A stretch of DNA of 32,563 bases from Candidatus Brocadiaceae bacterium (GTDB lineage: Bacteria; Planctomycetota; Brocadiia; Brocadiales; Brocadiaceae). Shown one piece after another: positions 4,718 to 32,563 of the stretch. The translations under genes were made by a program, and so were the position numbers. The DNA lies in NCBI GenBank assembly GCA_015661205.1, contig JACVXV010000010.1, positions 1-32,563 on the forward strand, written 5' to 3'. The notes under the pieces were generated by a model. It saw only the letters and a program-made list of their open reading frames with translations, did no database searches and was not told the origin of the DNA. Positions within the stretch are counted from its first letter, which is position 1; every line of letters begins with the position of its first letter.

Positions 4718-5170
4718 ATGCAGATACTGGTTGACGCCGACGCGTTTCCCGGCGTGATCGTGGATATCCTGTACCGGGCGGTGGAGCGTGTTCGCGTGCC
4801 GTTGATCCTGGTCTCGAACAAGCATATAAAGACTCCTCGATCACTGTACATTTCAACTATTACGGTATCTGCGGGTTTTGACGTGGCGGATGACCGTATC
4901 GTTGCGATGGTTCAACAGGGCGACCTGGTCATTACCGCCGACATACCGCTTGCTGACCGCGTCGTTGATAAGGGCGGATACGCGATTGACCCGCGCGGCG
5001 AGCTTTATACGGAATCGAACGTAAAACATCGGCTGGCTATGCGCAATCTTTTGAATGAACTTCGTAACGGCGGTATCATTACCGGCGGCCCCTCTTCGTT
5101 TGGCCGAAAGGACGCCCAGTCATTTGCCTGCCAACTGGACCGTTTTTTGACGAAATATTGCAAGAGGTGA
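4718..5170 (+). CDS. YaiI/YqxD family protein (UPF0178)
   Basis: A 150-residue protein matching the usual family length. It has the N-terminal acidic motif VDADAFPG, the conserved GFDVADDRIV and DLVITADIPLADRVV blocks, and the C-terminal GGPSSFGRKDAQSFACQLD signature. The family is related to the PIN/NYN nuclease-like fold, but its biochemical role is not established. The ATG has GGAAGGG about 6 bases upstream, which fixes the start. It stands alone between repeat clusters with no operon partner and is the only plus-strand gene in this part of the window. Confidence 0.9.
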   Translation: MQILVDADAFPGVIVDILYRAVERVRVPLILVSNKHIKTPRSLYISTITVSAGFDVADDRIVAMVQQGDLVITADIPLADRVVDKGGYAIDPRGELYTESNVKHRLAMRNLLNELRNGGIITGGPSSFGRKDAQSFACQLDRFLTKYCKR

Positions 5171-5195
5171 AAGAGTATACCCAAGGCGCGCTTAT

Positions 5196-5234
5196 TTACC
5201 GATGCAAAGCGGCCGTCACGGTTCTTACTTGATA
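5196..5234 (-). pseudogene. Possible second scrap of a GT1 glycosyltransferase gene
   Basis: About 35 bases (5200-5234) match 3578-3612 of the first remnant with roughly six mismatches, and the minus-strand translation YQVRTVTAALHR then stop parallels YQPGTVTSALHR. It is too short to be sure; it could be a chance-preserved piece of a tandem paralogue. Confidence 0.35.
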
Positions 5235-5379
5235 TAGCTCGTAACGAATCAAATGCGACATTTGTCTTGACTTAGGGGCTGTAAATAAACAATTTTTGCA
5301 ACTTCATTCTAACGATTATAGAATTTTATCGTTCCAATCACAGGGAAAAACAAATTCACCGCAGAGGACGCAGGAACAG

Positions 5380-5514
5380 CGTGTGATTTACGATGGAAAT
5401 GATGATACCGTCGCGCGGCAGACGGCCAAGTGGTTGCGATATAAATTCCGGTGCGAGGCAAAGGCAGTAATCGACAGCGCGTATTCTCTGCGCACGGTGG
5501 TTAATTATCAATAA
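5380..5514 (+). other. Possible coding remnant, unrecognised
   Basis: The frame reads VIYDGNDDTVARQTAKWL, then continues for about 25 residues to a stop at 5512-5514. Codon use looks protein-like and the start of the segment vaguely resembles a rhodanese-type strand-helix unit, but there is no ribosome-binding site or plausible start, and the end overlaps the 3' end of the opposite ABC ATPase gene. It may be a decayed gene end. Confidence 0.2.
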
Positions 5515-6535
5515 ACATAACCTCCATCTTTTCAATAGAAAACCTTACAGGCTGCCCCACCTCATACCGCTCACGAGCGTGCAGCTTGATTTCTTCACCG
5601 GAGGAGGAGATATTGTACTTGTACACATCGCCCACAAAGCCCCGGTTTGTGATTATGCCGTCGCAACAGCCGCACTTCACTATCGTTGCGTGATGCGGAC
5701 GGAAGAGGAGGGTGGCATTCCCACTCTCACGGCCTTTTGTATTACACGCCCACTCGCCCCACGGCGTTACTATCTTGTTCTCACCGGGTATTTTTACGGG
5801 TATGATGTTGGATTCTCCTACGAAGTTGGCTACAAATAATGAGTTTGGTGTGGAATATATTTCTTCGGGACTCCCTATCTGTTCCACACGGCCTGCATTC
5901 ATTACAACCACCTGGTCGGCCAGGAGAAAGGCGTCATCCTGGTCGTGGGTTACGTATACGGTGGTTATTTGTGTCTCTTGTTGAATGCGTTTCATTTCTT
6001 GCCGGATATCTTCGCGCAATTTCACGTCAATGTTCGATAACGGTTCGTCCATAAGCAACAACTTCGGCTCCGTAACAATGGCCCGCGCAATGGCAATCAA
6101 CTGCTGCTGGCCACCGGAGAGTTTGCCGGGATACTCTTTGGCATATCTACCCATATTGACCTTTTTCAAAACGGCCTCAATTTTTTCCCGCCTTTCAGCC
6201 TTTACAAGCCCAGCCGCCTTCAATCCGAACTCGATGTTTTCGTACACCGTTATATGAGGCCAGAGCGCCAGGTCTTGAAAGACCATGCCGATGTGCCGCT
6301 GTTTTTGAGAAATCATTGCTTTGCTACCTTGACTTGCAAGCACGCCTTCCATCCAAATCTCGCCGGCATCCGGGGACTCAAGACCGGCAATCATCCTCAA
6401 GGTTGTTGTCTTACCGCATCCGGAAGACCCCAATAAGGCCAGGAGTTGTCCCTTCTTAACACCAAAGGAAACACCCCTTAAAACCTCTTTATTGCCAAAA
6501 CGTTTGGTTAATTGCTTTACTTCTAAGGTATTCAT
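5501..6535 (-). CDS. fbpC: ABC importer ATPase, ferric-iron (FbpC/PotA-like) type
   Basis: A 344-residue ATPase with all nucleotide-binding motifs in order: Walker A GSSGCGKTT (about residues 36-44), Q-loop MVFQDLALWPH, signature LSGGQQQ, Walker B LLLMDEPLSNID and H-loop VYVTHD. A C-terminal TOBE-like regulatory domain follows (about 240-344), as in FbpC, CysA and PotA. The internal ATG (MNTLEVKQL) is preferred to one 60 bases upstream because it begins exactly at the domain. Neither start has a strong Shine-Dalgarno. It is the third component of an iron-type importer with the fused permease upstream, but about 500 bases of repeat element separate the two. The substrate is inferred from permease and binding-protein type; other oxyanion or polyamine specificities cannot be excluded from the ATPase alone. 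Confidence 0.85.
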   Translation of the reverse strand: MNTLEVKQLTKRFGNKEVLRGVSFGVKKGQLLALLGSSGCGKTTTLRMIAGLESPDAGEIWMEGVLASQGSKAMISQKQRHIGMVFQDLALWPHITVYENIEFGLKAAGLVKAERREKIEAVLKKVNMGRYAKEYPGKLSGGQQQLIAIARAIVTEPKLLLMDEPLSNIDVKLREDIRQEMKRIQQETQITTVYVTHDQDDAFLLADQVVVMNAGRVEQIGSPEEIYSTPNSLFVANFVGESNIIPVKIPGENKIVTPWGEWACNTKGRESGNATLLFRPHHATIVKCGCCDGIITNRGFVGDVYKYNISSSGEEIKLHARERYEVGQPVRFSIEKMEVMFIDN

Positions 6536-6597
6536 AGTTTTTTCAGGTAAGATTGAACGGATAAACAGACAGGGTCTTGGCTCAATTAAAAACATTC

Positions 6598-6988
6598 GGA
6601 ACCACAGATTTCACAGATTACACAGATTTAAATTTAGCAACAAATGGACACGAATTACACGAATTTACACGAACAGGCACGTATAAACGTAGAGACGCCC
6701 TGCCAAGGTGTCTGTAGAGTCTATGCAACCCAATATTCTACAAAAATTAACGCATCCTTCAGCATTCCCCTACTGGGAGGAGTGCCGAGGTGGGTTTCCC
6801 GTGGCATACAAGATCGTATCGCTTTGCCGTAGCAATTGTTGCCATTACACCCCACCCACAAACCCGCATAAACAAAATGAAAACTCCTATACAATAAATT
6901 TATCTCTGTCGTATCTCTGGCTTTTTTAATACCGAACGAACTGTTACGATTTTCATCTGTGTCATCTGTGAAATCTGTGGTTCCGGTC
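6598..6988. repeat. MITE-like element with about 30-bp terminal inverted repeats
   Basis: The left arm CGGAACCACAGATTTCACAG (from 6598) returns inverted at 6955-6988 with about two mismatches over 30 bases. Inside the left half is a run of ACACGAATT units, also found in the opposite orientation at 4645-4675. No transposase or other gene is present in the 390-base interval; short frames are unsupported. It lies between the ATPase and permease genes of one importer. Confidence 0.6.
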
Positions 6989-14346: not shown

Positions 14347-14645
14347 CGAGGCGATGCCTCGGGACAGTAAAAACGTTTGAAAACCACCGGTTTCACAGAT
14401 TTTAATTTATTACGTCAGGCATTGGGCGGCTTTTAGCAGCGTAGTGGCAAGGCGCGCCTTGCCACTACACATACGTTTGAAATTCCTATACATTAAATTA
14501 GACCTTCGGCGAATTTTTCATGTAGAGCGAAGAGCCTCTTCGCTCTACAACAGGCCCGAAGGGCAGAAAGTATATAGCCAGGGGTGAAGCCCCTGGTTAA
14601 AGAAATACTATAACAAGCCCCAAAGGGGCGACAGAAAAGGATGCT
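14347..14645 (+). repeat. Composite intergenic repeat, modules M1-M3-R
   Basis: A small hairpin CGAGGCGATGCCTCG (14347-14361) is followed by a CACAGATT scrap, module M1 (GTAGTGGCAAGGCGCGCCTT..., 14434-14500), module M3 (AGAGCGAAGAGCCTCTTCGCTCT, 14521-14550) and the R hairpin cluster (GGCCCGAAGGGC, CCAGGGGTGAAGCCCCTGG, GCCCCAAAGGGGCGACAG, to 14645). The order matches the repeats at 26650 and 32340. Confidence 0.75.
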
Positions 14646-16512: not shown

Positions 16513-16547
16513 TAGATCATAATGTCAACCGGGGACGGTTGATCTAC
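16512..16547 (-). terminator. Bulged hairpin over the MFS stop codon
   Basis: Arms GTAGATCA (16512-16519) and TGATCTAC (16540-16547) with an inner CAACCG/CGGTTG stem. It covers the stop codon of the MFS gene and could end its transcript, but no U-tract follows on the minus strand, so a repeat-derived hairpin is as likely. Confidence 0.3.
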
Positions 16548-17776
16548 CGAGAAACATCTCCAGCTTTTCTTTCCTGCACCGTCAGCGCGAAAACAAACGA
16601 AGCAAGAACTAAGATTGTGGCAATAATGAGAAAAGAGTATTGATAACTGAGGTGCGCCAGAAGTAGTCCGGCTAAAATAGGGCCAGACGCATGGCCTATA
16701 TCAAAGATACTCCCAAAGGTTCCCATAGCAATGCCATAATGCTGTTCCCTGCAGAATCCTGCTACCATAGCGGCTGAAGAAGAGGTCACAAACGCCTCGC
16801 CAATGCCAAAAATTGACGCCAGAAAAATTAAAAAATAAAAATCCCGCGTCAATGGAATACAAGCAAAGGGAATCGCACAAATCCACATTCCGAAAAAGAT
16901 AACAGGCTTTCCGCCATATCGGTCAGAGATTTTTCCCATAACGGGCTTTGCCAGGATAGTAGTAAAAATCTGCGCCCCCCAGAGAACCCCGGCCTGAAAA
17001 GCCGTCAGGCCGGCAACCGTAACTGCATAGATCGGCAAAAACGCCTCTAATGCGCCGACCGATAGATTTTGTATGCCCTCCATGTTGCTGGTAATAATTA
17101 TCCGATAATCGCTCATAATCTCTTTTATACCTTTGGATAATTTCTTCCAGGCGTCTATCAGAGAGATTTTGTTTTGATTTGTTTCACGGTTCTGTGGTTT
17201 GCCGGCATAGAGCTTCAACGTAAAACCCAGAGAAATCAGGCCAAAAAGCCCACAGATAAAATAGGCTATGTGAAAATGGCGTAGAAAATGACTCCCATTC
17301 GGGGACAGGCAATACAGAATATATCCCCCGAAAGGAGCGCCGATAAGATTTCCTATAATGGTAATGGAAGAAAACCATGAAAGCCTTTCCCCTTTTTTCT
17401 CGCCGGCGGTATCTGCGATCATTGCCATAGCAACAGGACCGTAGATTGACGTGGCGAGTCCGTGGAAAAATCGAATACCCACCAATTGCCAATAATTAGT
17501 TACAAAGTAATAGGCGAAAGGAGTAAATGCAAAAACCAGAACACCCACAAAAAGCATTTTATACCTGCCAAATATGTCTGACAGGGCACCTGCCGGCAGT
17601 TTGAACAATATCCCTGTTATCGTAGATGCGCCAACCACAAATCCAATAGCCTCCGGTTTCGCGCCTAAGGTCAGGGCAAATAAAGGCAGTATGGGGGTTC
17701 TTGCCATAGCATAACTCATCCGAGCAAAGAAACCCACCGTGCACAAGGCAAGAAAAGGAGAAAGGATTTTTGTCAT
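16544..17776 (-). CDS. MFS transporter in a chrB operon
   Basis: 410 residues with about twelve hydrophobic segments and the MFS loop 2-3 signature as GALSDIFGRYKM (near residue 60) and its second-half counterpart GKISDRYGGKPV. The start ATG overlaps the stop of the upstream small gene (ATGA), indicating translational coupling. That operon begins with a ChrB-like gene, so this transporter occupies the position where the CHR-family chromate pump ChrA is normally found; export of chromate or another oxyanion is an inference from context. A partial, roughly 85%-similar second copy of its C-terminal quarter lies at about 20350-20611. Confidence 0.88.
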   Translation of the reverse strand: MTKILSPFLALCTVGFFARMSYAMARTPILPLFALTLGAKPEAIGFVVGASTITGILFKLPAGALSDIFGRYKMLFVGVLVFAFTPFAYYFVTNYWQLVGIRFFHGLATSIYGPVAMAMIADTAGEKKGERLSWFSSITIIGNLIGAPFGGYILYCLSPNGSHFLRHFHIAYFICGLFGLISLGFTLKLYAGKPQNRETNQNKISLIDAWKKLSKGIKEIMSDYRIIITSNMEGIQNLSVGALEAFLPIYAVTVAGLTAFQAGVLWGAQIFTTILAKPVMGKISDRYGGKPVIFFGMWICAIPFACIPLTRDFYFLIFLASIFGIGEAFVTSSSAAMVAGFCREQHYGIAMGTFGSIFDIGHASGPILAGLLLAHLSYQYSFLIIATILVLASFVFALTVQERKAGDVSR

Positions 17777-18028: not shown

Positions 18029-19021
18029 TTAGTTACCTCCCGCTGTATTTGAAGAGTAATACTGATAAAGAGCGTCAAATATTTCTGCTCCCTTTTCAAG
18101 CAACTTGTTGTCATTCTTTAATTTTTGACTCAGCCCGGTAACAATTTGAGACAATCCCTCGGCCTCTTTTCGTCCGTACTTATCGTCCTTTAAATCAATG
18201 TCATGGACGATCTCTGCGATCGGCGCCAATGCTGCATCTTTTAGGCCAAATGCCTTAATAAGAGTCTCAAAGGTGCAGTCGTCCCCATGATGGGTAAATT
18301 CCGCGCCGTACATATCAAAGGGTATCGCGCCTTTGGGTGTTTTATCGGTACTTTTTGGCAAAAAAATAAACCTTGCCTTTGTATCAATAAATCTTCTGAT
18401 AAGCCAGGCCGAAGCCATCCGGTCGATGTATACGTCTCTTCGTGTCACCCACTTTTTACCCACATAATCCTTGGCTTGATATGTCTTATCAATACCGCAT
18501 ACTTTCCTCTTTGTCGCCTTAGACCATCCATCTAACTTCTGTTGTATTACTTGTACCTTTTGGGAAACCCGTTCTTTTTGTGGGGCATTGAAAAAGTCAA
18601 TTTTGGCCAAATCTTCAACATTTTTGATGGTTTCGTTCAGACGTTTTTTGACGTCATGAGTAAGGCTATCCGTTATGCCTTCCGTTCCCTCAATTTGTTC
18701 AACCGTCTTCAGTATATTATCGCACGCATTGGACAGCACAAGGTACTCCTTGTCACAGGCATCGTTAAAGGTCTTAACAATCTCTTCGTCTTGTTTTTTA
18801 TCCAGTGACTCCGTGATGAATAAAGATGCGTCACTCCCGCTGTCCTTGATGTGCTTGCATAGCCACAGTATGATCTCCTCGTATTCTTTTGTGTAGGGAA
18901 GCACATATACCGCATTTTTAAAAAGCGCTGCCCCATATTTTTTCAAATCACGCCAGACCTTAACCCGGAGACTCGGCGCATCCTGTGCGATTTGATGTAT
19001 GAAGAGTATCCACTTATTCAT
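18029..19021 (-). CDS. chrB: ChrB-like chromate resistance protein
   Basis: 330 residues with both ChrB parts. The N-terminal domain opens WILFIHQIAQDAPSLRVKVW, then YGAALFKNAVYVLPYT, as in ChrB regulators. A charged, helical linker (about 80-175) follows. The C-terminal chromate-resistance domain contains WVTRRDVYIDRMASAWLIRR, AIPFDMYGAEFTHHGDDCTF and IAEIVHDIDLKDDKYG, with its conserved Arg, His and Asp residues intact. In characterised systems ChrB senses chromate and controls the chr operon. Here it leads a coupled operon with a small protein and an MFS transporter; no ChrA is present. A promoter candidate lies about 50 bases upstream. Confidence 0.88.
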   Translation of the reverse strand: MNKWILFIHQIAQDAPSLRVKVWRDLKKYGAALFKNAVYVLPYTKEYEEIILWLCKHIKDSGSDASLFITESLDKKQDEEIVKTFNDACDKEYLVLSNACDNILKTVEQIEGTEGITDSLTHDVKKRLNETIKNVEDLAKIDFFNAPQKERVSQKVQVIQQKLDGWSKATKRKVCGIDKTYQAKDYVGKKWVTRRDVYIDRMASAWLIRRFIDTKARFIFLPKSTDKTPKGAIPFDMYGAEFTHHGDDCTFETLIKAFGLKDAALAPIAEIVHDIDLKDDKYGRKEAEGLSQIVTGLSQKLKNDNKLLEKGAEIFDALYQYYSSNTAGGN

Positions 19022-24077: not shown

Positions 24078-24245
24078 TGGACACGTTTTTTGCGTAAAGA
24101 CAGCACGGTAAACAGTGAATAAATACTTTTTTTTGTACACACGGAGATAATAAGCCCTCCTTGTTTTATAACAGATAGCCATGTTCCTTTCGTGACGCAC
24201 CAGGCATGGCGCACATTTTTTGTACCATTTAAGGTGATAAGAAAG

Positions 24246-26630
24246 ATGAAGCTGATAAACAAAGGTGTTTTGGCCGGTGGCGTTAGTCTCGTAGTTGCGG
24301 TGTGCGTTTCTTTTTCCCCAAATTTTTCCGGCAAGCGGGTGGAAACAGCCAATCCACACCAGGCAAACGAGGTTATTCAAAAGGCGCAGGGAATTCAACT
24401 GCCTTTTATCAAGAATGAAGAGCAAATGGATGAAGAGGTCGCCTTTTTTACCAATACATTTCAGGGCGGCGTATTTGTTACAAAACGGGGAGAACTCGTT
24501 TATTCACTGAAGGAAAGGCGCTATGAGGCACAGACAGAAAATCCAAATACGGGCACGGAAAAAGAGCATAATGGCGACGCCTCCGGCCTCTCGCATCCGG
24601 CAGGAAACGGGCAAGACGTTGCCCTTGAAAAGGAAGGGGCCTTTGCAGGATTTGCTGCTAAAAATCGGGTAAAAAGGGTGGTGCTGAAGGAAGAATTTAT
24701 TGACGGAAAGGTTGAAAACATAACCGGAGAGGGAAAAACGGCCACGGAGGTTTCTTGTTTTAAAGGAAACGACCCATCCAGGTGGAAAAGCAACATATCG
24801 GCGTACGACGTCGTCAGCCTCGGAGAAGTGTACCAGGGCATCGAATTAAAATTGAAGGCCTACGGAAACAATATTGAGAAGCTTTTTTACGTCAAGCCTG
24901 ATGCCGGAACGGAACAGATCAAGATAGGCCTCAGCGGCGCAAATTCCCTGGGGGTAAATAAAGAAGGACAGCTTGAGGCGGAAACAGGGCTTGGTACGGT
25001 TAGGTTCACGAAACCCGTGGCATATCAGGAGATTGATGGAAAGCGGGTGGCGGTGGAGGTGGAGTATTGTGTTTTGGCTAGCGGGGGACTGGGGGCGGCG
25101 GAGCAGGGGGGCAGGGGAGCAGGGGGGCAAGAGAGCGGGAAAGCGGGGGAGATGGGAGCGATTAATTATGGGTTTAAGGTGGCTGCTTACGATACAACAA
25201 AGGAACTGGTTATTGATCCCCTTCTTGCCTCCACCTATTTAGGAGGGCTTGATTCGGATTTTGGCTATGCTATTGCTATCGATGCGGATAAAAACATCTT
25301 AGTTGCAGGGTATACCATGTCGCCAGAGTTCCCGATAACGGCTGGCGCTTGGGGAATAACGTATAACAACAATGACATCTTCATATCCAAATTCAGCGGG
25401 GATTTGAAGTGCCTCCTGGCATCCACCTTTATCGGCGGCTCTTCCGACGATTATGTGCGCGCTATGGTTATAGATACGGCCAAAAACATTTATATAACCG
25501 GCCAAACCTCATCCTCAAATTATCCGGTAACCCGCGATGCATATACGGTTACCAAACACGGCGGTAGCGACGTCTTCCTGACAAAGCTTGACGGGAATTT
25601 AACGCACCTCACCGCGTCTACTTTTTTAGGCGGGACTTCTGATGATTATGCACAGTCTATCGTCCTTGCGAAAAGCGGTATTTTTATCTATGTAACCGGC
25701 GGTACCTCGTCACCTGACTTTCCAACGACCCCCGGCGCCTACAGTTCTTCACATAAGGACTCCGACGCCTTTGTTGCAAAGCTGAATTCCAACCTCTCCC
25801 TCCTTCTCGCATCGACATACCTGGGAGGAGACAATAAAGACTACGGTATTTCGGTATGTCTTGACTTACAGAATGACATAATTGTGAGCGGCGATACCTG
25901 TTCGCCTGATTTCCCGATAGCTTCTGGCGCTTATGACACGACATTTAACGGCGGTTTTGGCGACGTTTTTGTAGCTAAATTTAATTCAGACTTGTCGAAA
26001 CTTCTCGCGTCCACGTATTTGGGAGGGACTTCGGATGATTTGGCGCACGGGAGCACCATAGACTCACAAGGAAATATTTACGTTACCGGCCAGACGGAAT
26101 CGTTGGACTTTCCGGCCACGCCGAATGCTTATAGCACCTCGTTTCGCAATGGCGACGTCTTTGTGTCCAAATTCAATTGGAATCTAACCGAGCTTGCCGC
26201 ATCTACCTATTTGGGCGGGGCAGACGACGACGCGGGTAATTCAGTCGTCATCGGTCCGGACGGAAAGATATACGTAGGCGGCTACACTGGCTCAACGGAT
26301 TTTCCAACCACACCCGGTGCTTATTGCACCACGAAAGGGGCCTTCTTTGATGCCTTTGTCGTAAAACTGAGCACCGATTTGTCGAAGCTTCTCGCCTCCA
26401 CGTTTATCGGCGGGTTTTATCGGGATGCTGCCCACTCTATCACGACAGACCCCCAGGGGTATGTTTATGTGGTGGGTGAAACGCGCTCAGCAGACTTTCC
26501 GGTAACACCGGGGGTTTTTGATAGTGGTTACAATGGAGATGCAGCCGGCTCCTATACCTACGACGCCTTTATATCAAAGCTGGACAATACCCTGTCGGCA
26601 TCGCCCGGCGGCGGCGACAAAAAGCGGTAA
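24246..26630 (+). CDS. Secreted SBBP-repeat beta-propeller protein
   Basis: 794 residues. A signal peptide (MKLINKGVLAGGVSLVVAVC..) is followed by a DUF7948-like N-terminal domain (FFTNTFQGGVFVTKRGELVY, about residues 60-340) and then seven SBBP repeats, each starting with AST(Y/F)(L/I)GG and passing through a GNIYVTGxTxSxDFPxTPGAY-like strand pair and a DVFVSKFNxDLS-like end. Seven repeats fit a closed seven-bladed propeller. AAGGTGATAAG before the second Met (24246) decides the start over an earlier ATG at 24192. No C-terminal anchor or sorting domain is seen, so the protein may be extracellular or periplasmic; its ligand is unknown. A G-rich repeat insertion sits in the N-terminal domain (25081-25160). 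Confidence 0.88.
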   Translation: MKLINKGVLAGGVSLVVAVCVSFSPNFSGKRVETANPHQANEVIQKAQGIQLPFIKNEEQMDEEVAFFTNTFQGGVFVTKRGELVYSLKERRYEAQTENPNTGTEKEHNGDASGLSHPAGNGQDVALEKEGAFAGFAAKNRVKRVVLKEEFIDGKVENITGEGKTATEVSCFKGNDPSRWKSNISAYDVVSLGEVYQGIELKLKAYGNNIEKLFYVKPDAGTEQIKIGLSGANSLGVNKEGQLEAETGLGTVRFTKPVAYQEIDGKRVAVEVEYCVLASGGLGAAEQGGRGAGGQESGKAGEMGAINYGFKVAAYDTTKELVIDPLLASTYLGGLDSDFGYAIAIDADKNILVAGYTMSPEFPITAGAWGITYNNNDIFISKFSGDLKCLLASTFIGGSSDDYVRAMVIDTAKNIYITGQTSSSNYPVTRDAYTVTKHGGSDVFLTKLDGNLTHLTASTFLGGTSDDYAQSIVLAKSGIFIYVTGGTSSPDFPTTPGAYSSSHKDSDAFVAKLNSNLSLLLASTYLGGDNKDYGISVCLDLQNDIIVSGDTCSPDFPIASGAYDTTFNGGFGDVFVAKFNSDLSKLLASTYLGGTSDDLAHGSTIDSQGNIYVTGQTESLDFPATPNAYSTSFRNGDVFVSKFNWNLTELAASTYLGGADDDAGNSVVIGPDGKIYVGGYTGSTDFPTTPGAYCTTKGAFFDAFVVKLSTDLSKLLASTFIGGFYRDAAHSITTDPQGYVYVVGETRSADFPVTPGVFDSGYNGDAAGSYTYDAFISKLDNTLSASPGGGDKKR
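25081..25160 (+). repeat. G-rich purine repeat within the SBBP coding sequence
   Basis: Runs of five or six G separated by GCA/AGCA units (GGAGCAGGGGGGCAGGGGAG and more) form an in-frame insert coding for a Gly/Ala/Gln/Glu linker. Several G-runs on one strand could form a quadruplex. The unit resembles intergenic GGGGAGCA-type repeats, captured here in a gene. Confidence 0.55.
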
Positions 26631-26649: not shown

Positions 26650-26868
26650 CATACGTAAGGACACGGGTGCCGTGTCCCTACAACGGCTTTGAAATTCCTA
26701 TACATTAAATTAGGTCGTCTACGGCGACTGCTTTTGCATGTAGGGCGAAGAGATTCTTCGCTCTACAACAGGCCCGAAGGGCAGAAAGAATATAGCCAGG
26801 GGTGAAGCCCCTGGTAAAGAAACAAAAGATACCCAGCCCCGAAGGGGAGACAGAGAAGGACACACAAC
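26650..26868 (+). repeat. Composite intergenic repeat, modules M2-M3-R
   Basis: M2 (GGACACGGGTGCCGTGTCC plus TTGAAATTCCTATACATTAA, 26652-26714), M3 (AGGGCGAAGAGATTCTTCGC..., 26739-26770) and the R hairpin cluster (GGCCCGAAGGGC, CCAGGGGTGAAGCCCCTGG, GCCCCGAAGGGG, to 26868). It fills the gap between the convergent SBBP and DUF2149 genes, where its stems could also serve as bidirectional terminators. Confidence 0.75.
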
Positions 26869-26872
26869 TTGG

Positions 26873-27235
26873 CTAACGATTCTCTTCATGCCCTTCAGGC
26901 ACATAAATTACCTTTCCGTCTTTTAACCGGTAAGCGGTACCCAGACGAGTGCCTTCCCCTTGCAGTTTTTTGTCGGTGACTTTTTCTACTTTTACCTGCT
27001 TGCCTTTTTTCGTAACGATCTCTACCTGGCAGGCATCGTTTTTCCTGACCAGGGTGATTTCTGATTTTAGTGAGAGGACGTCTGGCAGGCTGTAAGCGCT
27101 GATTAAGGCGCCGATAAGACCTACAATAAATACTATCCCCACATCAAAAAGGTTGGCTACGCCCGACAGGGGATCTTCCTGATGGAGATCGACCTCTTTT
27201 CCGATGACCCTACGCCTTCTTTTAAGGTATCTCAT
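26873..27235 (-). CDS. DUF2149 membrane protein (HmuV/ExbD-like position)
   Basis: 120 residues with one membrane segment (VGIVFIVGLIGALISAYSLP, about 32-51) near the N-terminus after a basic cytoplasmic tail, and a soluble C-terminal part with strands (VEIVTKKGKQVKVEKV, GTAYRLKDGKVIYVP). This matches DUF2149, found beside CobN-like and MotA/TolQ/ExbB genes in methanogens and in hmu loci (HmuV) of Bacteroidota. Its single-helix plus periplasmic domain layout recalls ExbD, making it the likely partner of the ExbB-like channel. It starts 14 bases before the end of the upstream ExbB-like gene, so the two are co-translated. Confidence 0.85.
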   Translation of the reverse strand: MRYLKRRRRVIGKEVDLHQEDPLSGVANLFDVGIVFIVGLIGALISAYSLPDVLSLKSEITLVRKNDACQVEIVTKKGKQVKVEKVTDKKLQGEGTRLGTAYRLKDGKVIYVPEGHEENR

Positions 27236-27839
27236 TTTTTATAATGCATTCCGTAAAATACTCAAGATTCTTTATGTCTTCATAAATCCATCGGTTTTTT
27301 ATCATCGAGAGAAAGTATGCAATCATTCCAATAGCCAGCCCCACGACCGTCGTAGTAAAGGCAATGGTGATATTACTGGAAAGTTTATCAATATCGCCCT
27401 GAGATAATCCCGACAGTGCAGGCCCCATCGGAATTATGGTTCCCATCAAACCAAGGGTCGGGCCAGCGCGCACCATGAGGCGGAGGGTATCCAGGCTTTT
27501 TGCCATCTGCTGTTCCTTGCTTTGCAACAGATATTCAATGCGCATCTCTTTATCCGTTGCCTCTTTTAATTCATCCTTTAACTCTTTGAGATATTCCCGC
27601 AAATAACAGGGTATTTCCTGAAATGCTACTTGCCGAACATCTTTATTTGATAATAATTCTATATATTCCCTGGGATTTTGCAGCCCGGCTTGTTTCTTGC
27701 GTTGCAAGTATTCGGAAGCAAATCCACCGGCGGCGAAAATAACCCGGACAAAAAAAGCAACTAACAAAATCATAACCGGGTAAAGCATTATGGATGAAAA
27801 AACGGAAAGAACGTCTTGTAATAATTTGAGAAGATTCAT
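27222..27839 (-). CDS. MotA/TolQ/ExbB-family proton channel protein
   Basis: 205 residues with three hydrophobic segments at about 17-38, 130-155 and 165-187. The conserved family core is present: RLMVRAGPTLGLMGTIIPMG, then ITIAFTTTVVGLAIGMIAYF, separated from the first helix by a cytoplasmic charged loop (EYLKELKDELKEATDKEMRI). In TolQ/ExbB/MotA proteins this forms a pentameric channel that uses proton-motive force to move a periplasmic partner. Here the neighbours are an exported CobN-like chelatase (66 bases upstream) and DUF2149 (overlapping downstream), the same trio as HmuS-HmuU-HmuV. No TonB or TolA gene is present in the window. Confidence 0.9.
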   Translation of the reverse strand: MNLLKLLQDVLSVFSSIMLYPVMILLVAFFVRVIFAAGGFASEYLQRKKQAGLQNPREYIELLSNKDVRQVAFQEIPCYLREYLKELKDELKEATDKEMRIEYLLQSKEQQMAKSLDTLRLMVRAGPTLGLMGTIIPMGPALSGLSQGDIDKLSSNITIAFTTTVVGLAIGMIAYFLSMIKNRWIYEDIKNLEYFTECIIKNEIP

Positions 27840-27905
27840 AGTAACACTTTATACACACGAAAATGAGTTAAGTTTTAAAAGCGGGCGGCCCGAAGCGTTG
27901 CCTCG

Positions 27906-30900
27906 TCAGAATTTCTTCCTTATCCACCCAAAAGTAAATAAACTGATGCATCCAAGCGTTATTGCGACTAATAACCACGGTTTGACGGCGCTGTTAACGT
28001 TCCGGTTGTTTTTGCTATCTTTTATCTCTTCCATTTCCAATCCTTCAACAGTCCCGGTTTTTCCAGCATCGTCATCCTCTATTTTCCAATCGTCCACCTT
28101 TGGAGCGGCTAATCGTCTCTCACCGCTGTCCTGCAAGGGAGGAGGGGCTTGAACAATCTTGTCCATCTCTGTTTGCCGCTCGTTTAGTGTTTTACCGGTG
28201 ACGGTTTTTAAGACTTCGGCATACTGAATCAAGGTGTCGGGATGTACGAGGCCGGGAGTAGACAAAACATCTGTTGTATATTGTTGAAAGGCCGGGTTGC
28301 CGCAGGTATGTTCACAGCAGGCCACACCATGCTCTATCACCGTTCCCAGATATTCCTTCGCCAGGGTTTGTTTGATGCTTTCCGTAGGTTGCCAGTAACC
28401 TTTTCGTATCGTCTCCAGCATGCGCGCGGTGAGCGCCTGATACGCGTAGGGATTATTTTTACTAAAAAATTCTTTTAAGGCCATTCCGTATTTATCTTCA
28501 ACGTAGACTTCAAATGTCTGACCCCATCGGGCGGCGTCCATTGTCTCCGGCATCGTAACCTGCCAACCCCACATATTTTCAACAAATTCAGACATCTTGT
28601 TGGCCCCTTCAAAGCCCTCTTTCTTCATTCCTTCAATCCATTCCGGATTCCAATAGCGTGACCGTAATTCCATGCCCATCATCCTGTCAATCGCCGTCAT
28701 TTCAGGCCGGGCTGGATTCATCATATTGGTAACGACCAGTCCGGGTGACTTTCCGTCCAGGTTTCTGATTGCTGCAGCAAGCCCTCCCGCATACATGAAA
28801 AAATCGTCATTATCGACCGTGCCATAAAGGTTGGTAGAGCGGCTGTGGACAACCATCCTGGTTCCGCTGAGCGCCATTTTATAAACGTCTTCCATCGGCT
28901 CACCCCACAAACCGTTTCCATATCCACAACACATACGTTTTAAGTATTCTTCTGCCACAACAGAGGCGTCTTCCCAGGTTCCACTTGCGCTTACGATACG
29001 TGACACATTCAGGTCATAATGACCGGGGGCCTCATCAAAGATTCTTACGGCAGCGTACTGCTCAGCCTTCTTTTGCGGCCAGCCTTTTTGAACCAGTTTT
29101 TTTGTCACTTCCCTGACATGTTGTTGAACCTGGTTATCTTTTTCGTCAAGCCCTTTTACCATTTGAACGGCCTGGTCTATGTATTGAGTCAACTGGCCAA
29201 ACATTTCTTCAGCAGCCGAAGAAACAACGATATCAATGCGTGGACGGCCTAACTTCTCTCTTGATATTATTTTAATTCCTGTTACCTTACCCCACTCATT
29301 CCAAATGGGCTCAACACCTAATAAGTAGAGAATCTGGGATTCCAGTACCCCCTCGTGGCGTATGGTCTCTGTACCCCAGATAACGAAGGATAACTTTTCC
29401 GGATACTTTCCGTCGTTATTTGCACGATAATTATCGAGTAGTTCTTGTGTTAATTTTACACCCACCTGCCAGGCCTCTTTCTTGGGTATCTTATCCGGGT
29501 CGAAGGCATAGAAGTTCTTCCCCGTCGGCAATGAGCCGGGATTTCTTACCGGATCGTTTCCCGTTCCCGTCGGTATATAGTGCCCATTCATAGACTTAAT
29601 CAGGCTGGACAATTCCCGCTTTGCGCCTTCCTGAATATTTTTGTCTAACTCATCAGCAGAAACATCCTTAACAACCTCTTTTACCGCTTGAATGGTAGAT
29701 AAGCGAAGCGGTTCATCAGGCACATTGCCAAAGGTATGCAGTCCGTACGGCATATTGAGCTGTTTCAACTCTTTAAGAAACCCTTCAATTTCATGAATGA
29801 CCTCATGGTCAAATTTGTGTGGATTGCCCTCTTTAGCATCAACGTTTAGAAATTCACTGATATCGATATCTTTATCAAGCCCCAGGGATTTTACCTTGTT
29901 TATGATGTTTTCCTGGTACTGCTTTGCATGTGCTGCCCCTTGCTCAAGGGCTTGATCATGGCTCCTTATCATCTCCTCAAGTTCGGCGTATTCATGATAA
30001 AGCCCGCCCTTTTTTAAGGGGGGGATCATGTGGTCTATGACAACGGCAGCGCCCCTCCGTTTCGCCACAAGCCCTTCACCCACATCGTCTACAATGTAAG
30101 GATAGATTACCGGCAAATCCTGAATCAATGCCTCCGGCGGGTCGTCACCCGAAAGACCGTTGCTTTTTCCTGGCAGCCACTCATGCGTGCCGTGTGTGCC
30201 AAAGTGAATAACCGCATCCGCGCCAAAACCATATTTCAGCCATAAATAGGTACCGAAATACTGATGATGCGGAGACAGGTCTTTACTATGATAGATGGCC
30301 TCTTTGTCTTGCAGCCAGCCCCTGACCGGCTGTGGGAGGATAACGACATTTCCCCGCCTTACAGCAGGAATGACCATATATTTCTTCTTTTGTACCGGGT
30401 CCGTCCACATCATTACATTGGATTCTTCAACGGAACCCCAATCCTTATGAACGTCTTTCATACTATTCGCGGGTAAATTTCTGACCCATCTTTGGTAATC
30501 CTCTAACGGAACTAATACACATTTTCCTTTACTTGCCATTTCGTCGAGTTCGCCCGGCGCCCAATTCCCCACATTCCTTCCGTACCTGAGAGAATTCTCG
30601 AGAAGTATTTCAGGGTCAATCGCTTCATTACCTACGTCATATCCAGCCTCTTTCATTTTTTTCAAGACGTTATCAATGCTAGCGAAGACATTCAGGTAGC
30701 TAGCGCCAATATGTTGCTTCCCCGGTGGATAGTTCCAGTAAAATATGGCAACCTTTTTGTTTGAGTTATTTTTTCTTTGCAAATTGACCCAGGCGTTTAT
30801 ACGGTTGACAGCGCGATTAACGCGCTCAGGTATGGGCTTTCGTTGCTCAACAAAGAAACCTGTTCCTTCGTCTTTTTCACGAATACGATAGGAGACGACC

Positions 30901-31922
30901 GTGGGTTGGATAAGACCGGCAATTTCCGGGATAGCCAACTGCCAGCTTACCTCCAGAGAACTCAAGCCTTCGGGGTCGTTCTCCCACGTCTTTCCGTCTT
31001 TCCCATAAACAGTAATCAGGTTGATTACCGGCGCCCCGCATTTCTCTAATGCATTCGTTGCCTTAAAATCTGAAAAACGAAATAAGAAAGAAAGGATACC
31101 GGAAGCCCTTGAGACCCCTTTGGTATCAACTAATAGTCTTTCAACGACAGCGCCTTCAGGGTAACCAAATGCCACAAAGGCATTCAACCCTTTTTCTTCA
31201 AGGGCGCGAATCAAATCGTCTTCTACTTCATTTTGATCCTGTTCGCAAAACGACGGGTAGGTCAGGACTGCAATCCATTTTGCTTTTTCCTTGAAATAAC
31301 CTTCTTTCCTGTACCAATTCTTATATTCCTCATATGTCTCAAAAAACATCGCCTGAGAGTTATGACGATGATAGTAGCCTTCTTTCATCTGCCTCCTGGG
31401 TGGTTCCACCGGTATTCCCGAAATGCCTTGGTATTTTGCCAGGGAAAATAGCACCATGTTCTGAAAGTTATCCGGCCCTCCATAATCAAAATAAGAGCGA
31501 AATTCTTCGTCATAGATAAGGCCTAAATCGATGTACTCCTTATCTAATCCGGCCGAGTGGTTAATGGGCAATATACGCGCTCCCTGTGAAATAGCCCTCT
31601 GAATCGCCTCATGGGCAAAACCCGATTGTGTAGGAGTTGAAATCAGGATACCCATAATATCGACAACAATAATGTCGGAATCATCAATCTCATGGGGATT
31701 AAAGTTGGCATCTAAATCAGTTTTGCTAATGAGTTCAAAATTGACCCGGTTTTTCAGCGAGGGATGTTTTGTCCAAATATTTTTTATGGCTTTAACGACC
31801 GCAGGAGTCAGGTAGTTTCCTACAAGAAAAGTGTATTTTACCGGTTTGGTTTCTTCCGCGAGAGATAGAGGAAGATAGAAAAGAAACACGGTAAAGAAGA
31901 ACGCCGCCACACCCCTTTTCAT
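27906..31922 (-). CDS. Exported CobN/HmuS-like tetrapyrrole chelatase, membrane anchored
   Basis: 1338 residues, close to CobN/BchH/HmuS size. The CobN/Mg-chelatase H core is clear: HFGTHGTHEWLPGK near residue 570, GLSGDDPPEALIQDLPVIYP after it, WGTETIRHEGVLESQILYLL in the middle, and HGVACCEHTCGNP near 1200. Unlike cytoplasmic CobN it has an N-terminal signal peptide (FFFTVFLFYLPLSLAEE) and a C-terminal membrane helix (PWLLVAITLGCISLFTFGW) with a basic tail, so nearly the whole enzyme faces the periplasm, tethered to the membrane. Such proteins next to ExbB and DUF2149 genes include HmuS, linked to haem iron removal in Bacteroidota. No CobS/CobT- or ChlD/ChlI-type ATPases are nearby. Its start overlaps the DUF4430 stop by one base (TAATG). 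Substrate (haem, corrinoid or another tetrapyrrole) and direction of metal transfer are not determined by sequence. Confidence 0.92.
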   Translation of the reverse strand: MKRGVAAFFFTVFLFYLPLSLAEETKPVKYTFLVGNYLTPAVVKAIKNIWTKHPSLKNRVNFELISKTDLDANFNPHEIDDSDIIVVDIMGILISTPTQSGFAHEAIQRAISQGARILPINHSAGLDKEYIDLGLIYDEEFRSYFDYGGPDNFQNMVLFSLAKYQGISGIPVEPPRRQMKEGYYHRHNSQAMFFETYEEYKNWYRKEGYFKEKAKWIAVLTYPSFCEQDQNEVEDDLIRALEEKGLNAFVAFGYPEGAVVERLLVDTKGVSRASGILSFLFRFSDFKATNALEKCGAPVINLITVYGKDGKTWENDPEGLSSLEVSWQLAIPEIAGLIQPTVVSYRIREKDEGTGFFVEQRKPIPERVNRAVNRINAWVNLQRKNNSNKKVAIFYWNYPPGKQHIGASYLNVFASIDNVLKKMKEAGYDVGNEAIDPEILLENSLRYGRNVGNWAPGELDEMASKGKCVLVPLEDYQRWVRNLPANSMKDVHKDWGSVEESNVMMWTDPVQKKKYMVIPAVRRGNVVILPQPVRGWLQDKEAIYHSKDLSPHHQYFGTYLWLKYGFGADAVIHFGTHGTHEWLPGKSNGLSGDDPPEALIQDLPVIYPYIVDDVGEGLVAKRRGAAVVIDHMIPPLKKGGLYHEYAELEEMIRSHDQALEQGAAHAKQYQENIINKVKSLGLDKDIDISEFLNVDAKEGNPHKFDHEVIHEIEGFLKELKQLNMPYGLHTFGNVPDEPLRLSTIQAVKEVVKDVSADELDKNIQEGAKRELSSLIKSMNGHYIPTGTGNDPVRNPGSLPTGKNFYAFDPDKIPKKEAWQVGVKLTQELLDNYRANNDGKYPEKLSFVIWGTETIRHEGVLESQILYLLGVEPIWNEWGKVTGIKIISREKLGRPRIDIVVSSAAEEMFGQLTQYIDQAVQMVKGLDEKDNQVQQHVREVTKKLVQKGWPQKKAEQYAAVRIFDEAPGHYDLNVSRIVSASGTWEDASVVAEEYLKRMCCGYGNGLWGEPMEDVYKMALSGTRMVVHSRSTNLYGTVDNDDFFMYAGGLAAAIRNLDGKSPGLVVTNMMNPARPEMTAIDRMMGMELRSRYWNPEWIEGMKKEGFEGANKMSEFVENMWGWQVTMPETMDAARWGQTFEVYVEDKYGMALKEFFSKNNPYAYQALTARMLETIRKGYWQPTESIKQTLAKEYLGTVIEHGVACCEHTCGNPAFQQYTTDVLSTPGLVHPDTLIQYAEVLKTVTGKTLNERQTEMDKIVQAPPPLQDSGERRLAAPKVDDWKIEDDDAGKTGTVEGLEMEEIKDSKNNRNVNSAVKPWLLVAITLGCISLFTFGWIRKKF

Positions 31923-32305
31923 TATTCACCCCTTCCCGGAGAACAAACATCCTTAGTATACGTCCATCTCATGCAGTCATCTTCATTGAGAATACATTTA
32001 TCGGCAAAAAGGGTCGCACTTTTATCGTTAATGCGGTAATACCATACCTTAATCCCCACTTGCCCTTCAACGCCGTCAATGGACGCAACCAAAAGGTGAT
32101 CGCCGATTAACCGTGTTTCGGTTTGTGCTGCGGATTGAAGCGCGTCCAGGGCGGTAATGCCCTGTTTCCATTTTATGTCTACCTTGCGATTTTGTTGTAG
32201 CCCTCCATAGTCGATTTCAACCGTCACCTTTTGTCCTGCGCCGCACGCAGCAGTCAAAACCACGAAAAGGACAAACATCATCACGATTTTTTGTAAGTAT
32301 TTCAT
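31922..32305 (-). CDS. Exported DUF4430 protein (transcobalamin C-domain-like)
   Basis: 127 residues: a signal peptide (IVMMFVLFVVLTAACGAG), then a DUF4430 domain with ITALDALQSAAQTE, the VASIDGVEG turn, WYYRINDKSATLFADK and DCMRWTYTKD, the latter two being hallmark strands. DUF4430 is related to the C-terminal beta domain of transcobalamin and intrinsic factor, so a role in holding a corrinoid or other tetrapyrrole near the chelatase is plausible but not shown. AAGGAG about 11 bases before the ATG at 32305 supports this start. It is the first gene of the operon and is coupled to the chelatase gene by a one-base overlap. A possible Cys at the cleavage site could make it a lipoprotein, but the lipobox is weak. 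Confidence 0.82.
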   Translation of the reverse strand: MKYLQKIVMMFVLFVVLTAACGAGQKVTVEIDYGGLQQNRKVDIKWKQGITALDALQSAAQTETRLIGDHLLVASIDGVEGQVGIKVWYYRINDKSATLFADKCILNEDDCMRWTYTKDVCSPGRGE

Positions 32306-32329
32306 AACACTCAATTCTCCTTCCTTAAA

Positions 32330-32563
32330 TTAGGCCTTTCGGCACTTTTAACAGCGTAGTGGCAAGGCGCGCCTTGCCACTACACGTACGTTTGAATTTT
32401 CTAAACATTAAATGAGGCCTTTTCGGCGACTTAACACGTAAGGACACGGTTCCCGTGTCCTTACTTTGAAATTCCTATACATTCATGTAGAGCGAAGAGC
32501 TTCTTCGCTCTACAACAGGCCCGAAGGGCAGAAAGGATATAGCCAGGGGTGAAGCCCCTGGTA
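32330..32563 (+). repeat. Composite intergenic repeat, modules M1-M2-M3-R, cut by the window edge
   Basis: The most complete array: M1 (GTAGTGGCAAGGCGCGCCTT..., 32354-32415), M2 (GGACACGGTTCCCGTGTCC, 32435-32482), M3 (AGAGCGAAGAGCTTCTTCGC..., 32486-32513) and the beginning of the R cluster to the window end. It starts about 25 bases upstream of the chelatase operon's first gene, so any promoter of that operon must lie in or beyond it. Confidence 0.75.

Follow-up and report, generated by a model that had tools for sequence, protein, structure and literature searches.

What would a CobN-type metal chelatase do outside the cytoplasm, with components of an ion-driven motor as its neighbours? The question is raised by a 32,563-nucleotide stretch of DNA from a Candidatus Brocadiaceae bacterium (assembly GCA_015661205.1), analysed here as a whole and called the window, which is the entire contig JACVXV010000010.1 (C20 in our numbering of genomes (G), contigs (C) and loci (L)). 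Four closely packed minus-strand genes at 26873-32314 encode, in this order, a DUF4430 protein, a predicted exported class I chelatase, an ExbB-like channel and a DUF2149 protein (Table 1). The operon very probably has a role in corrinoid/cobalt handling, and its best explanation as a whole, which we hold with slightly less than even confidence, is a B12-controlled corrinoid/cobalt acquisition system with cobalt removal. The system is of the known BtuS/HmuSTUV kind; its corrinoid/cobalt context, CobN-type cleft and partner of predicted transcobalamin fold are new.

All four genes were confirmed as open reading frames at the coordinates proposed in an initial annotation of the window, to which an alternative TTG start of the DUF4430 gene is added, and the Pfam matches of all four proteins exceed the curated cut-offs. 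The DUF4430 and chelatase genes overlap at 31922, 66 bp separate the chelatase gene from that of the channel, and the latter shares 14 bp with the DUF2149 gene. The same four-gene order recurs in relatives, therefore the arrangement is not due to chance. The guess at an anammox-type organism was right, because the nearest named relatives are Ca. Brocadia, Ca. Jettenia and other Brocadiaceae. Of 33 genomes of this family, 16 encode the chelatase: 15 of them together with an intact DUF2149 gene and one alone, with 17 genomes having neither and none having DUF2149 alone (Fisher p=1.5e-8). The ExbB/DUF2149 pairing is thus kept in related genomes, and G011 has two copies of the operon. Short DUF2149 remnants (38-47 residues) were seen in two of the 17 chelatase-free genomes (L197 in G012, 5351-5491; G028:C243:2781-2894), pointing to loss of the operon in both lineages. 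Pairing with DUF4430, initially described as unusual, is not peculiar to this genome, since an intact DUF4430 gene directly precedes the chelatase gene in 13 of the 16 chelatase-bearing genomes (the exceptions are G002, G010 and G015); 70-odd loci outside the family yielded no other case, save for a fragment in L014, a locus from one genome within the same order. Two weak hidden Markov model matches to DUF4430 in methanogen clusters (L143 and L155) proved to be ArsR-type helix-turn-helix proteins.

Hydropathy predicts an N-terminal hydrophobic segment (residues 4-22) and a C-terminal transmembrane segment (1316-1334) in the chelatase, in keeping with the export and anchoring first proposed for it. 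Of 94 sequences of the exported group, 77 have a hydrophobic N terminus and 76 a hydrophobic C terminus; none of the six cytoplasmic anchors has either. In a tree of 77 rows, the window chelatase falls into a 100%-supported clade of 52 exported rows, nearly all with Asp at a cleft position described below, and a split with 99% support in the Shimodaira–Hasegawa-like approximate likelihood ratio test sets the exported group as a whole apart from cytoplasmic CobN and BchH; this is an LG+G4 quick tree, in which the placement of the long branches HmuS and BchH is unsure. The split rules out a grouping with cytoplasmic CobN clades, and the protein scores below every NCBIfam CobN equivalog cut-off. 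AAA+/VWA partners (CobS/CobT, ChlI/ChlD) were found neither in the operon nor in the loci of relatives, except beside a cytoplasmic-type CobN of G015, no genome-wide search having been made. The reading of the partners as being of motor type, and not ATPases, is supported. CobNST has a homologous large subunit, but is cytoplasmic and ATP-driven, whereas the window chelatase is predicted to be exported, has no ATPase partners nearby and belongs to a separate clade. It is the sole class I chelatase found in its genome. Exported CobN homologues have been set apart as a third type, with a suggested role in metalloporphyrin salvage, and named BtuS, a term credited to Rodionov et al. 2003 (PMC6460266). 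The window protein is of this type and is likewise linked to ExbB-like and DUF2149 proteins; the members tested so far, B. fragilis BtuS1/2, serve haem-iron use, whereas the context here is corrinoid/cobalt with DUF4430.

The nearest solved structure is HmuS (9d26, E=6e-151), ahead of CobN and ChlH. HmuS is part of the HmuS-HmuT-HmuU-HmuV haem dechelatase system of Bacteroidota (PMC12583661, PMC13227078), which has the same exported, anchored class I chelatase with ExbB-like and DUF2149 proteins and, as do the loci of the window's relatives, a TonB-dependent receptor. The window operon might accordingly be read as a system for dechelation of haem or another porphyrin. Its chelatase retains the site-1 haem ligand Met-79 as M90, followed by G91 for Gly-80 (some close relatives have His at the Met position), and the C-terminal Cys pair C1202/C1207 (C1371/C1376 in HmuS), which is not present in the cytoplasmic anchors. 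Anammox cells, moreover, are rich in haem. The superfamily motif HFG(T/A)HG is also kept, as HFGTHG, with H577 at the place of HmuS His-538. The family features described for HmuS are a Met-rich insertion, Met-79, His-254 and an LSLDHxxEFMGG motif with His-1209 (PMC12583661). In the window chelatase the insertion (HmuS residues 698-909) is missing, the sequence being contiguous at 747, and so is the His-254/HGR motif: phmmer puts S-G-I there and MAFFT a gap, and the MAFFT and HMMER alignments disagree around HmuS 254-256, with His in neither. Trp-1202 has no counterpart, and VDNDDFFMYAGG replaces LSLDHxxEFMGG, with D1040 for His-1209 and M1043 for Glu-1212. The context differs as well: HmuY and HmuR are absent, relatives are under B12 riboswitches and not under iron starvation, with BtuB-type receptors and cobalt genes, there is an additional protein of predicted transcobalamin fold, and HmuT/DUF2162 was not found in the window's own genome. 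On residues and context we set haem dechelation aside as the main explanation; it is the least likely of the rivals and, in our estimate, highly improbable. Of the initial suggestion of haem or corrinoid/metal handling, the haem arm is thus not borne out, while the corrinoid/metal arm agrees with the B12 riboswitches, BtuB-type receptors and cobalt/cobalamin genes of relatives.

Asp at the HmuS-1209 position is shared with most cytoplasmic CobN proteins of the compared set, among them the large subunit of CobNST. Apart from HmuS itself, the HmuS-like His/Glu pair was confined to five proteobacterial loci (L157, L162 and L164-L166, from Stutzerimonas, Falsochrobactrum and others); BchH combines His at the first site with Asp at the second. 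These five loci form a second class of exported chelatases and match the layout of PA1922-PA1925 in P. aeruginosa, where a TonB receptor, CobN-like, ExbD-annotated and DUF2149 proteins share one operon, a layout that resembles the window module together with the receptor genes of its relatives; the P. aeruginosa operon is under Zur control, and zinc starvation induces it strongly (PMC4542158, PMC9431628). Those of their receptors that were examined are CirA-like and no riboswitch lies on the operon strand, which suggests a zinc-linked version. By analogy, the window system could scavenge a chelate of zinc or nickel, and a His-rich stretch (HEGHSHEKH-like) right after the signal peptide of some relatives (L006, L007, L008, L010, L012, L013 and L014), possibly a metal-binding tail, would fit such a role; it is absent from the window chelatase. 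However, PA1922-PA1925 differs in its Zur/zinc control and in having a CirA-type and not a BtuB-type receptor, and B12 riboswitches accompany none of the five His-type loci (including Stutzerimonas) versus 11 of 12 loci of the window's order, making zinc or nickel scavenging very improbable. One locus departs from a rule that Asp means corrinoid: L163 (Azospira oryzae) has Asp, but its receptor scores above the hemin and hemoglobin cut-offs.

The DUF4430 protein has an N-terminal hydrophobic segment (residues 10-28 by hydropathy) and is predicted to be exported. Its AlphaFold2 model, made from 12 family sequences, reached a mean predicted local distance difference test score (pLDDT) of 82.8, and all 19 matches in the PDB at E<=0.001 were intrinsic factor, transcobalamin or haptocorrin, isolated beta domains, or 3u7z, a DUF4430 protein of the gut bacterium R. 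gnavus annotated as putatively metal-binding. The model thus predicts the beta-domain fold of transcobalamin and intrinsic factor, which is their cobalamin-binding domain, with a template modelling score of 0.75 normalised to the isolated transcobalamin beta domain 5no0; at 11-17% sequence identity to the transcobalamin/intrinsic factor matches, the likeness is one of fold. Unlike those proteins, it would be a stand-alone bacterial domain without the alpha-barrel. We propose, from the modelled fold, that it may be a periplasmic corrinoid binder. This predicted fold, as well as gene content, operon structure, export signals, clade and active-site type, can be established by sequence.

In the channel protein, hydropathy reveals two strong transmembrane segments. 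It aligns with ExbB over the full length (hhalign probability 95.9%), and its T134 and T164 are conserved in 66 and 61 of 66 homologues, respectively. DUF2149 has a single transmembrane helix with Asp31 at its start; P22, D31, G93, G95, G99, Y102, G107, Y111 and P113 are invariant in 79 homologues. In the best hhalign segment D31 is aligned to the essential Asp of ExbD, but with a probability of 2.5%, which is not significant, and we dropped DUF2149 as a certified ExbD homologue. An ExbB/ExbD-like stator formed by the pair is plausible.

The trio of exported CobN, ExbB-like channel and DUF2149 was also found in Nitrospira, Acidobacteria, many Proteobacteria, Desulfobacteria, Methylomirabilis, Bacteroidota and methanogens, and the likeness to HmuS and methanogen clusters seen at the outset holds. 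Often, the wider loci also encode the predicted transporter DUF2162, the corrinoid-remodelling amidohydrolase CbiZ or a BtuF-CbiZ fusion. Three or four exported CobN genes stand in tandem in the deltaproteobacterial and methanogen loci L120, L133, L148 and L150, and the methanogen proteins are up to 1500-2150 aa long, one of them having carboxypeptidase-regulatory-like domains. A further cluster, which lies between corrinoid-synthesis genes, is Glov_3667-3675 on plasmid pSZ77 of Trichlorobacter (Geobacter) lovleyi, with a receptor, ExbB-like and DUF2149 proteins and an exported CobN 39.5% identical to the window chelatase; it differs in having DUF2162 and its own TonB/ExbBD and in lacking DUF4430. 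Its authors reported no CobS/CobT and gave the function as unknown (PMC3403914).

A TonB-dependent receptor gene is present at 15 of 16 wider loci from relatives (L031-L046), in most Brocadiaceae loci immediately upstream of DUF4430 or cobN. For receptors in L031, L036 and L040 the best NCBIfam model is the vitamin B12 receptor TIGR01779 (312-339 bits, versus 163-178 for hemin models), while in L039, from another family of the order, a hemin model has the top score. The curated cut-off of TIGR01779 (599.7 bits) is above these scores and above that of the best receptor in the window's own genome (316), so that all are BtuB-like and not certified BtuB. Receptor names were dropped as proof of ligand; because the best NCBIfam matches outside Brocadiaceae range over hemin, siderophore and B12, we relied on riboswitches instead. 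Of 12 loci scanned from the order, 11 have a cobalamin riboswitch (RF00174) within 8 kb upstream on the cobN strand, often in tandem and usually directly before the receptor gene. Among 25 Asp-type loci from outside the order, 9 have one in this interval and 16 have none. Further upstream on the same strand, Brocadiaceae loci carry a riboswitch, cbiM, cbiQ-cbiO (the cobalt energy-coupling factor transporter), cobD and a cobyric-acid-synthase-type gene (cobQ). In 10 of the 16 chelatase-bearing genomes (G002, G004, G010, G011, G016, G017, G020, G024, G031 and G032), cbiM and cobN share a contig and are 8.4-20.6 kb apart; in G009, a finished genome, they are far from each other. L037 (G039:C95) has, between receptor gene and exported chelatase (4754-6920), genes for a ferredoxin-type membrane protein and a double-cubane anaerobic reductase, which could be a source of low-potential electrons.

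In the window itself, the contig stops 249 bp before DUF4430, and the upstream neighbours of the operon are therefore hidden. The RF00174 search gave no cobalamin riboswitch in the window, and this terminal stretch contains three perfect hairpins only, and no btuB. Two cobalamin riboswitches, and no more, are present in the genome; they stand in tandem on contig C248, a short way upstream of the genome's best BtuB-like gene. Along most of its length, the product of this gene is 65-78% identical to the family's cobN-linked receptors. Two situations would account for this: the operon has become detached from the C248 receptor gene, or it is preceded by another receptor gene past the end of the contig. 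CbiM is encoded on contig C281, and CbiD and CobS are also present. A true BtuC was not found in this genome (best FecCD match 20 bits), and only two of the 33 family genomes, G015 and G016, have true FecCD/BtuC (272-303 bits). A count of BtuC in 29 of 33 genomes was rejected as misleading, all but two of the matches being of 19-33 bits on frames of ~290 aa, most likely other permeases. The two genomes have a separate cluster (L041, G015:C49, 112-12530; and G016:C84) with a TonB receptor, BtuFCD, a cytoplasmic-type CobN homologue, a fused AAA/VWA ChlI-ChlD protein and ExbB-ExbD-TonB, its full gene order read in G015 only. The linkage of riboswitch, BtuB-like receptor and CbiMQO in relatives, and the lack of a true BtuC here and in most of them, are again findings made on sequence.

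With no true BtuC in 31 of 33 genomes, BtuB-type receptors notwithstanding, the complex might itself carry intact corrinoids across the inner membrane by the proton gradient, in place of BtuCDF, the chelatase fold acting as corrinoid receptor. Many other loci have the predicted transporter DUF2162 in the place of HmuT, the putative permease of the Hmu system (PMC13227078), and some have the remodelling enzyme CbiZ. Yet the Brocadiaceae operon contains no permease-like gene and the window's own genome no DUF2162, ExbB-type channels are not known for passage of large solutes, the chelatase retains the catalytic His (H577) and cleft motifs, and module and BtuC coexist in G015 and G016. We consider intact-corrinoid transport unlikely.

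We prefer cobalt retrieval, in which the four genes would provide the inner-membrane and periplasmic part of B12-controlled corrinoid/cobalt acquisition. A BtuB-type receptor, whose gene adjoins the operon in relatives and lies on another contig here, would import corrinoids to the periplasm, where the DUF4430 protein would bind them and hand them to the exported, anchored chelatase. The ExbB-like channel and DUF2149 would be a proton-driven motor working the chelatase cleft, replacing the ATP-driven CobST/ChlID ring, and freed cobalt, the most likely product, would enter via CbiMQO for the cell's own anaerobic B12 synthesis. The precedent is the Bacteroides haem pathway (PMC12583661), with HmuR, HmuS and the ion importer FeoB in the roles proposed for BtuB, the window chelatase and CbiMQO. 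Cobalt retrieval would explain why a B12-synthesising cell without BtuCDF keeps a B12-type receptor, and why the operon stands beside the cobalt importer. We infer that the ligand is a corrinoid, that the chelatase is coupled to the motor and which way the reaction runs. Cobalt removal is a tentative assignment for the reaction itself, and the complete scheme, in which a proton-driven, ATP-independent periplasmic chelatase would take cobalt out of corrinoids and supply it to a cobalt importer, is rather doubtful.

The chelatase might also run in the direction of canonical CobN, inserting cobalt into metal-free or wrongly metallated corrinoids, or repairing these, in the periplasm. CobN is an insertase, the Asp at the HmuS His-1209 position is of CobN type, and outside the cytoplasm insertion would need a non-ATP energy source. 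However, the organism makes no cobalt-free corrin, because cobalt is inserted early (CbiD is present), the periplasm holds little free cobalt, and removal is the direction in which the nearest characterised exported homologue works (PMC12583661). We regard periplasmic insertion as decidedly unlikely.

Several points speak against cobalt retrieval. Departure of cobalt from a corrin without destruction of the ring is not known (PMC6771967); if biology does remove corrin cobalt, an energised complex is what one would expect. Family genomes without the chelatase module also have riboswitches and no BtuC, so the module is not required for what those riboswitches serve. The window's own genome carries B12 synthesis genes, and its C248 receptor gene is followed by a porin-like gene and not by the chelatase operon. 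Because both riboswitches and the best btuB are on C248, the case for B12 control of the window operon comes from its relatives. The evidence for motor coupling consists of gene linkage, and the structure model of DUF2149 is poor (pLDDT 61.8).

Table 1 Features of the chelatase operon and the adjoining contig end
Feature	Position	Strand	Size and match
DUF4430 protein	31922-32314 (TTG start) or 32305 (ATG start)	minus	127-130 aa; PF14478 34.7 bits
Class I chelatase, BtuS-type CobN homologue, predicted exported and membrane-anchored	27906-31922	minus	1338 aa; PF02514 1044 bits
MotA/TolQ/ExbB-family proton channel, HmuU-like	27222-27839	minus	205 aa; PF01618 56 bits
DUF2149 protein, HmuV-like, possible ExbD-like stator partner	26873-27235	minus	120 aa; PF09919 101 bits
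Intergenic stretch upstream of DUF4430, to contig end	32315-32563	minus	three perfect short inverted repeats

Elsewhere in the window, a perfect palindromic repeat, CCAGGGGCTTCACCCCTGG, occurs in three copies (14578-14596, 26796-26814 and 32543-32561; 0 expected). The third copy sits at the contig end, and the element is probably a dispersed repeat that caused the contig break. Adjoining the operon on the opposite strand (24192-26630) is a gene for an 812-aa SBBP beta-propeller protein with an N-terminal DUF7948 domain. A ChrB protein with both N- and C-terminal domains (18029-19021) is encoded upstream of, and on the same strand as, a major facilitator superfamily transporter gene (16544-17776), a pair that suggests chromate or metal resistance.

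Exported CobN homologues are widespread and their roles mostly unassigned, and the authors of the HmuS study state that most sequences of the superfamily cannot be annotated (PMC12583661). The His/Glu versus Asp difference, taken together with regulator and receptor context, offers a simple rule, open to testing, for assigning a haem, zinc or corrinoid role. If cobalt retrieval is true, receptor, exported chelatase and ExbB-like/DUF2149 pair would constitute a machine for stripping metals in general that exists in versions for iron, zinc and cobalt, the metal being set by iron, Zur or B12-riboswitch control. An ion motor swapped for the AAA motor would be a new way of powering a chelatase. The reaction would be the first case in biology of cobalt removal from a B12-type ring, an enzyme reaction without mild chemical counterpart (PMC6771967), and would alter the view of how cobalt and B12 travel in anammox communities.

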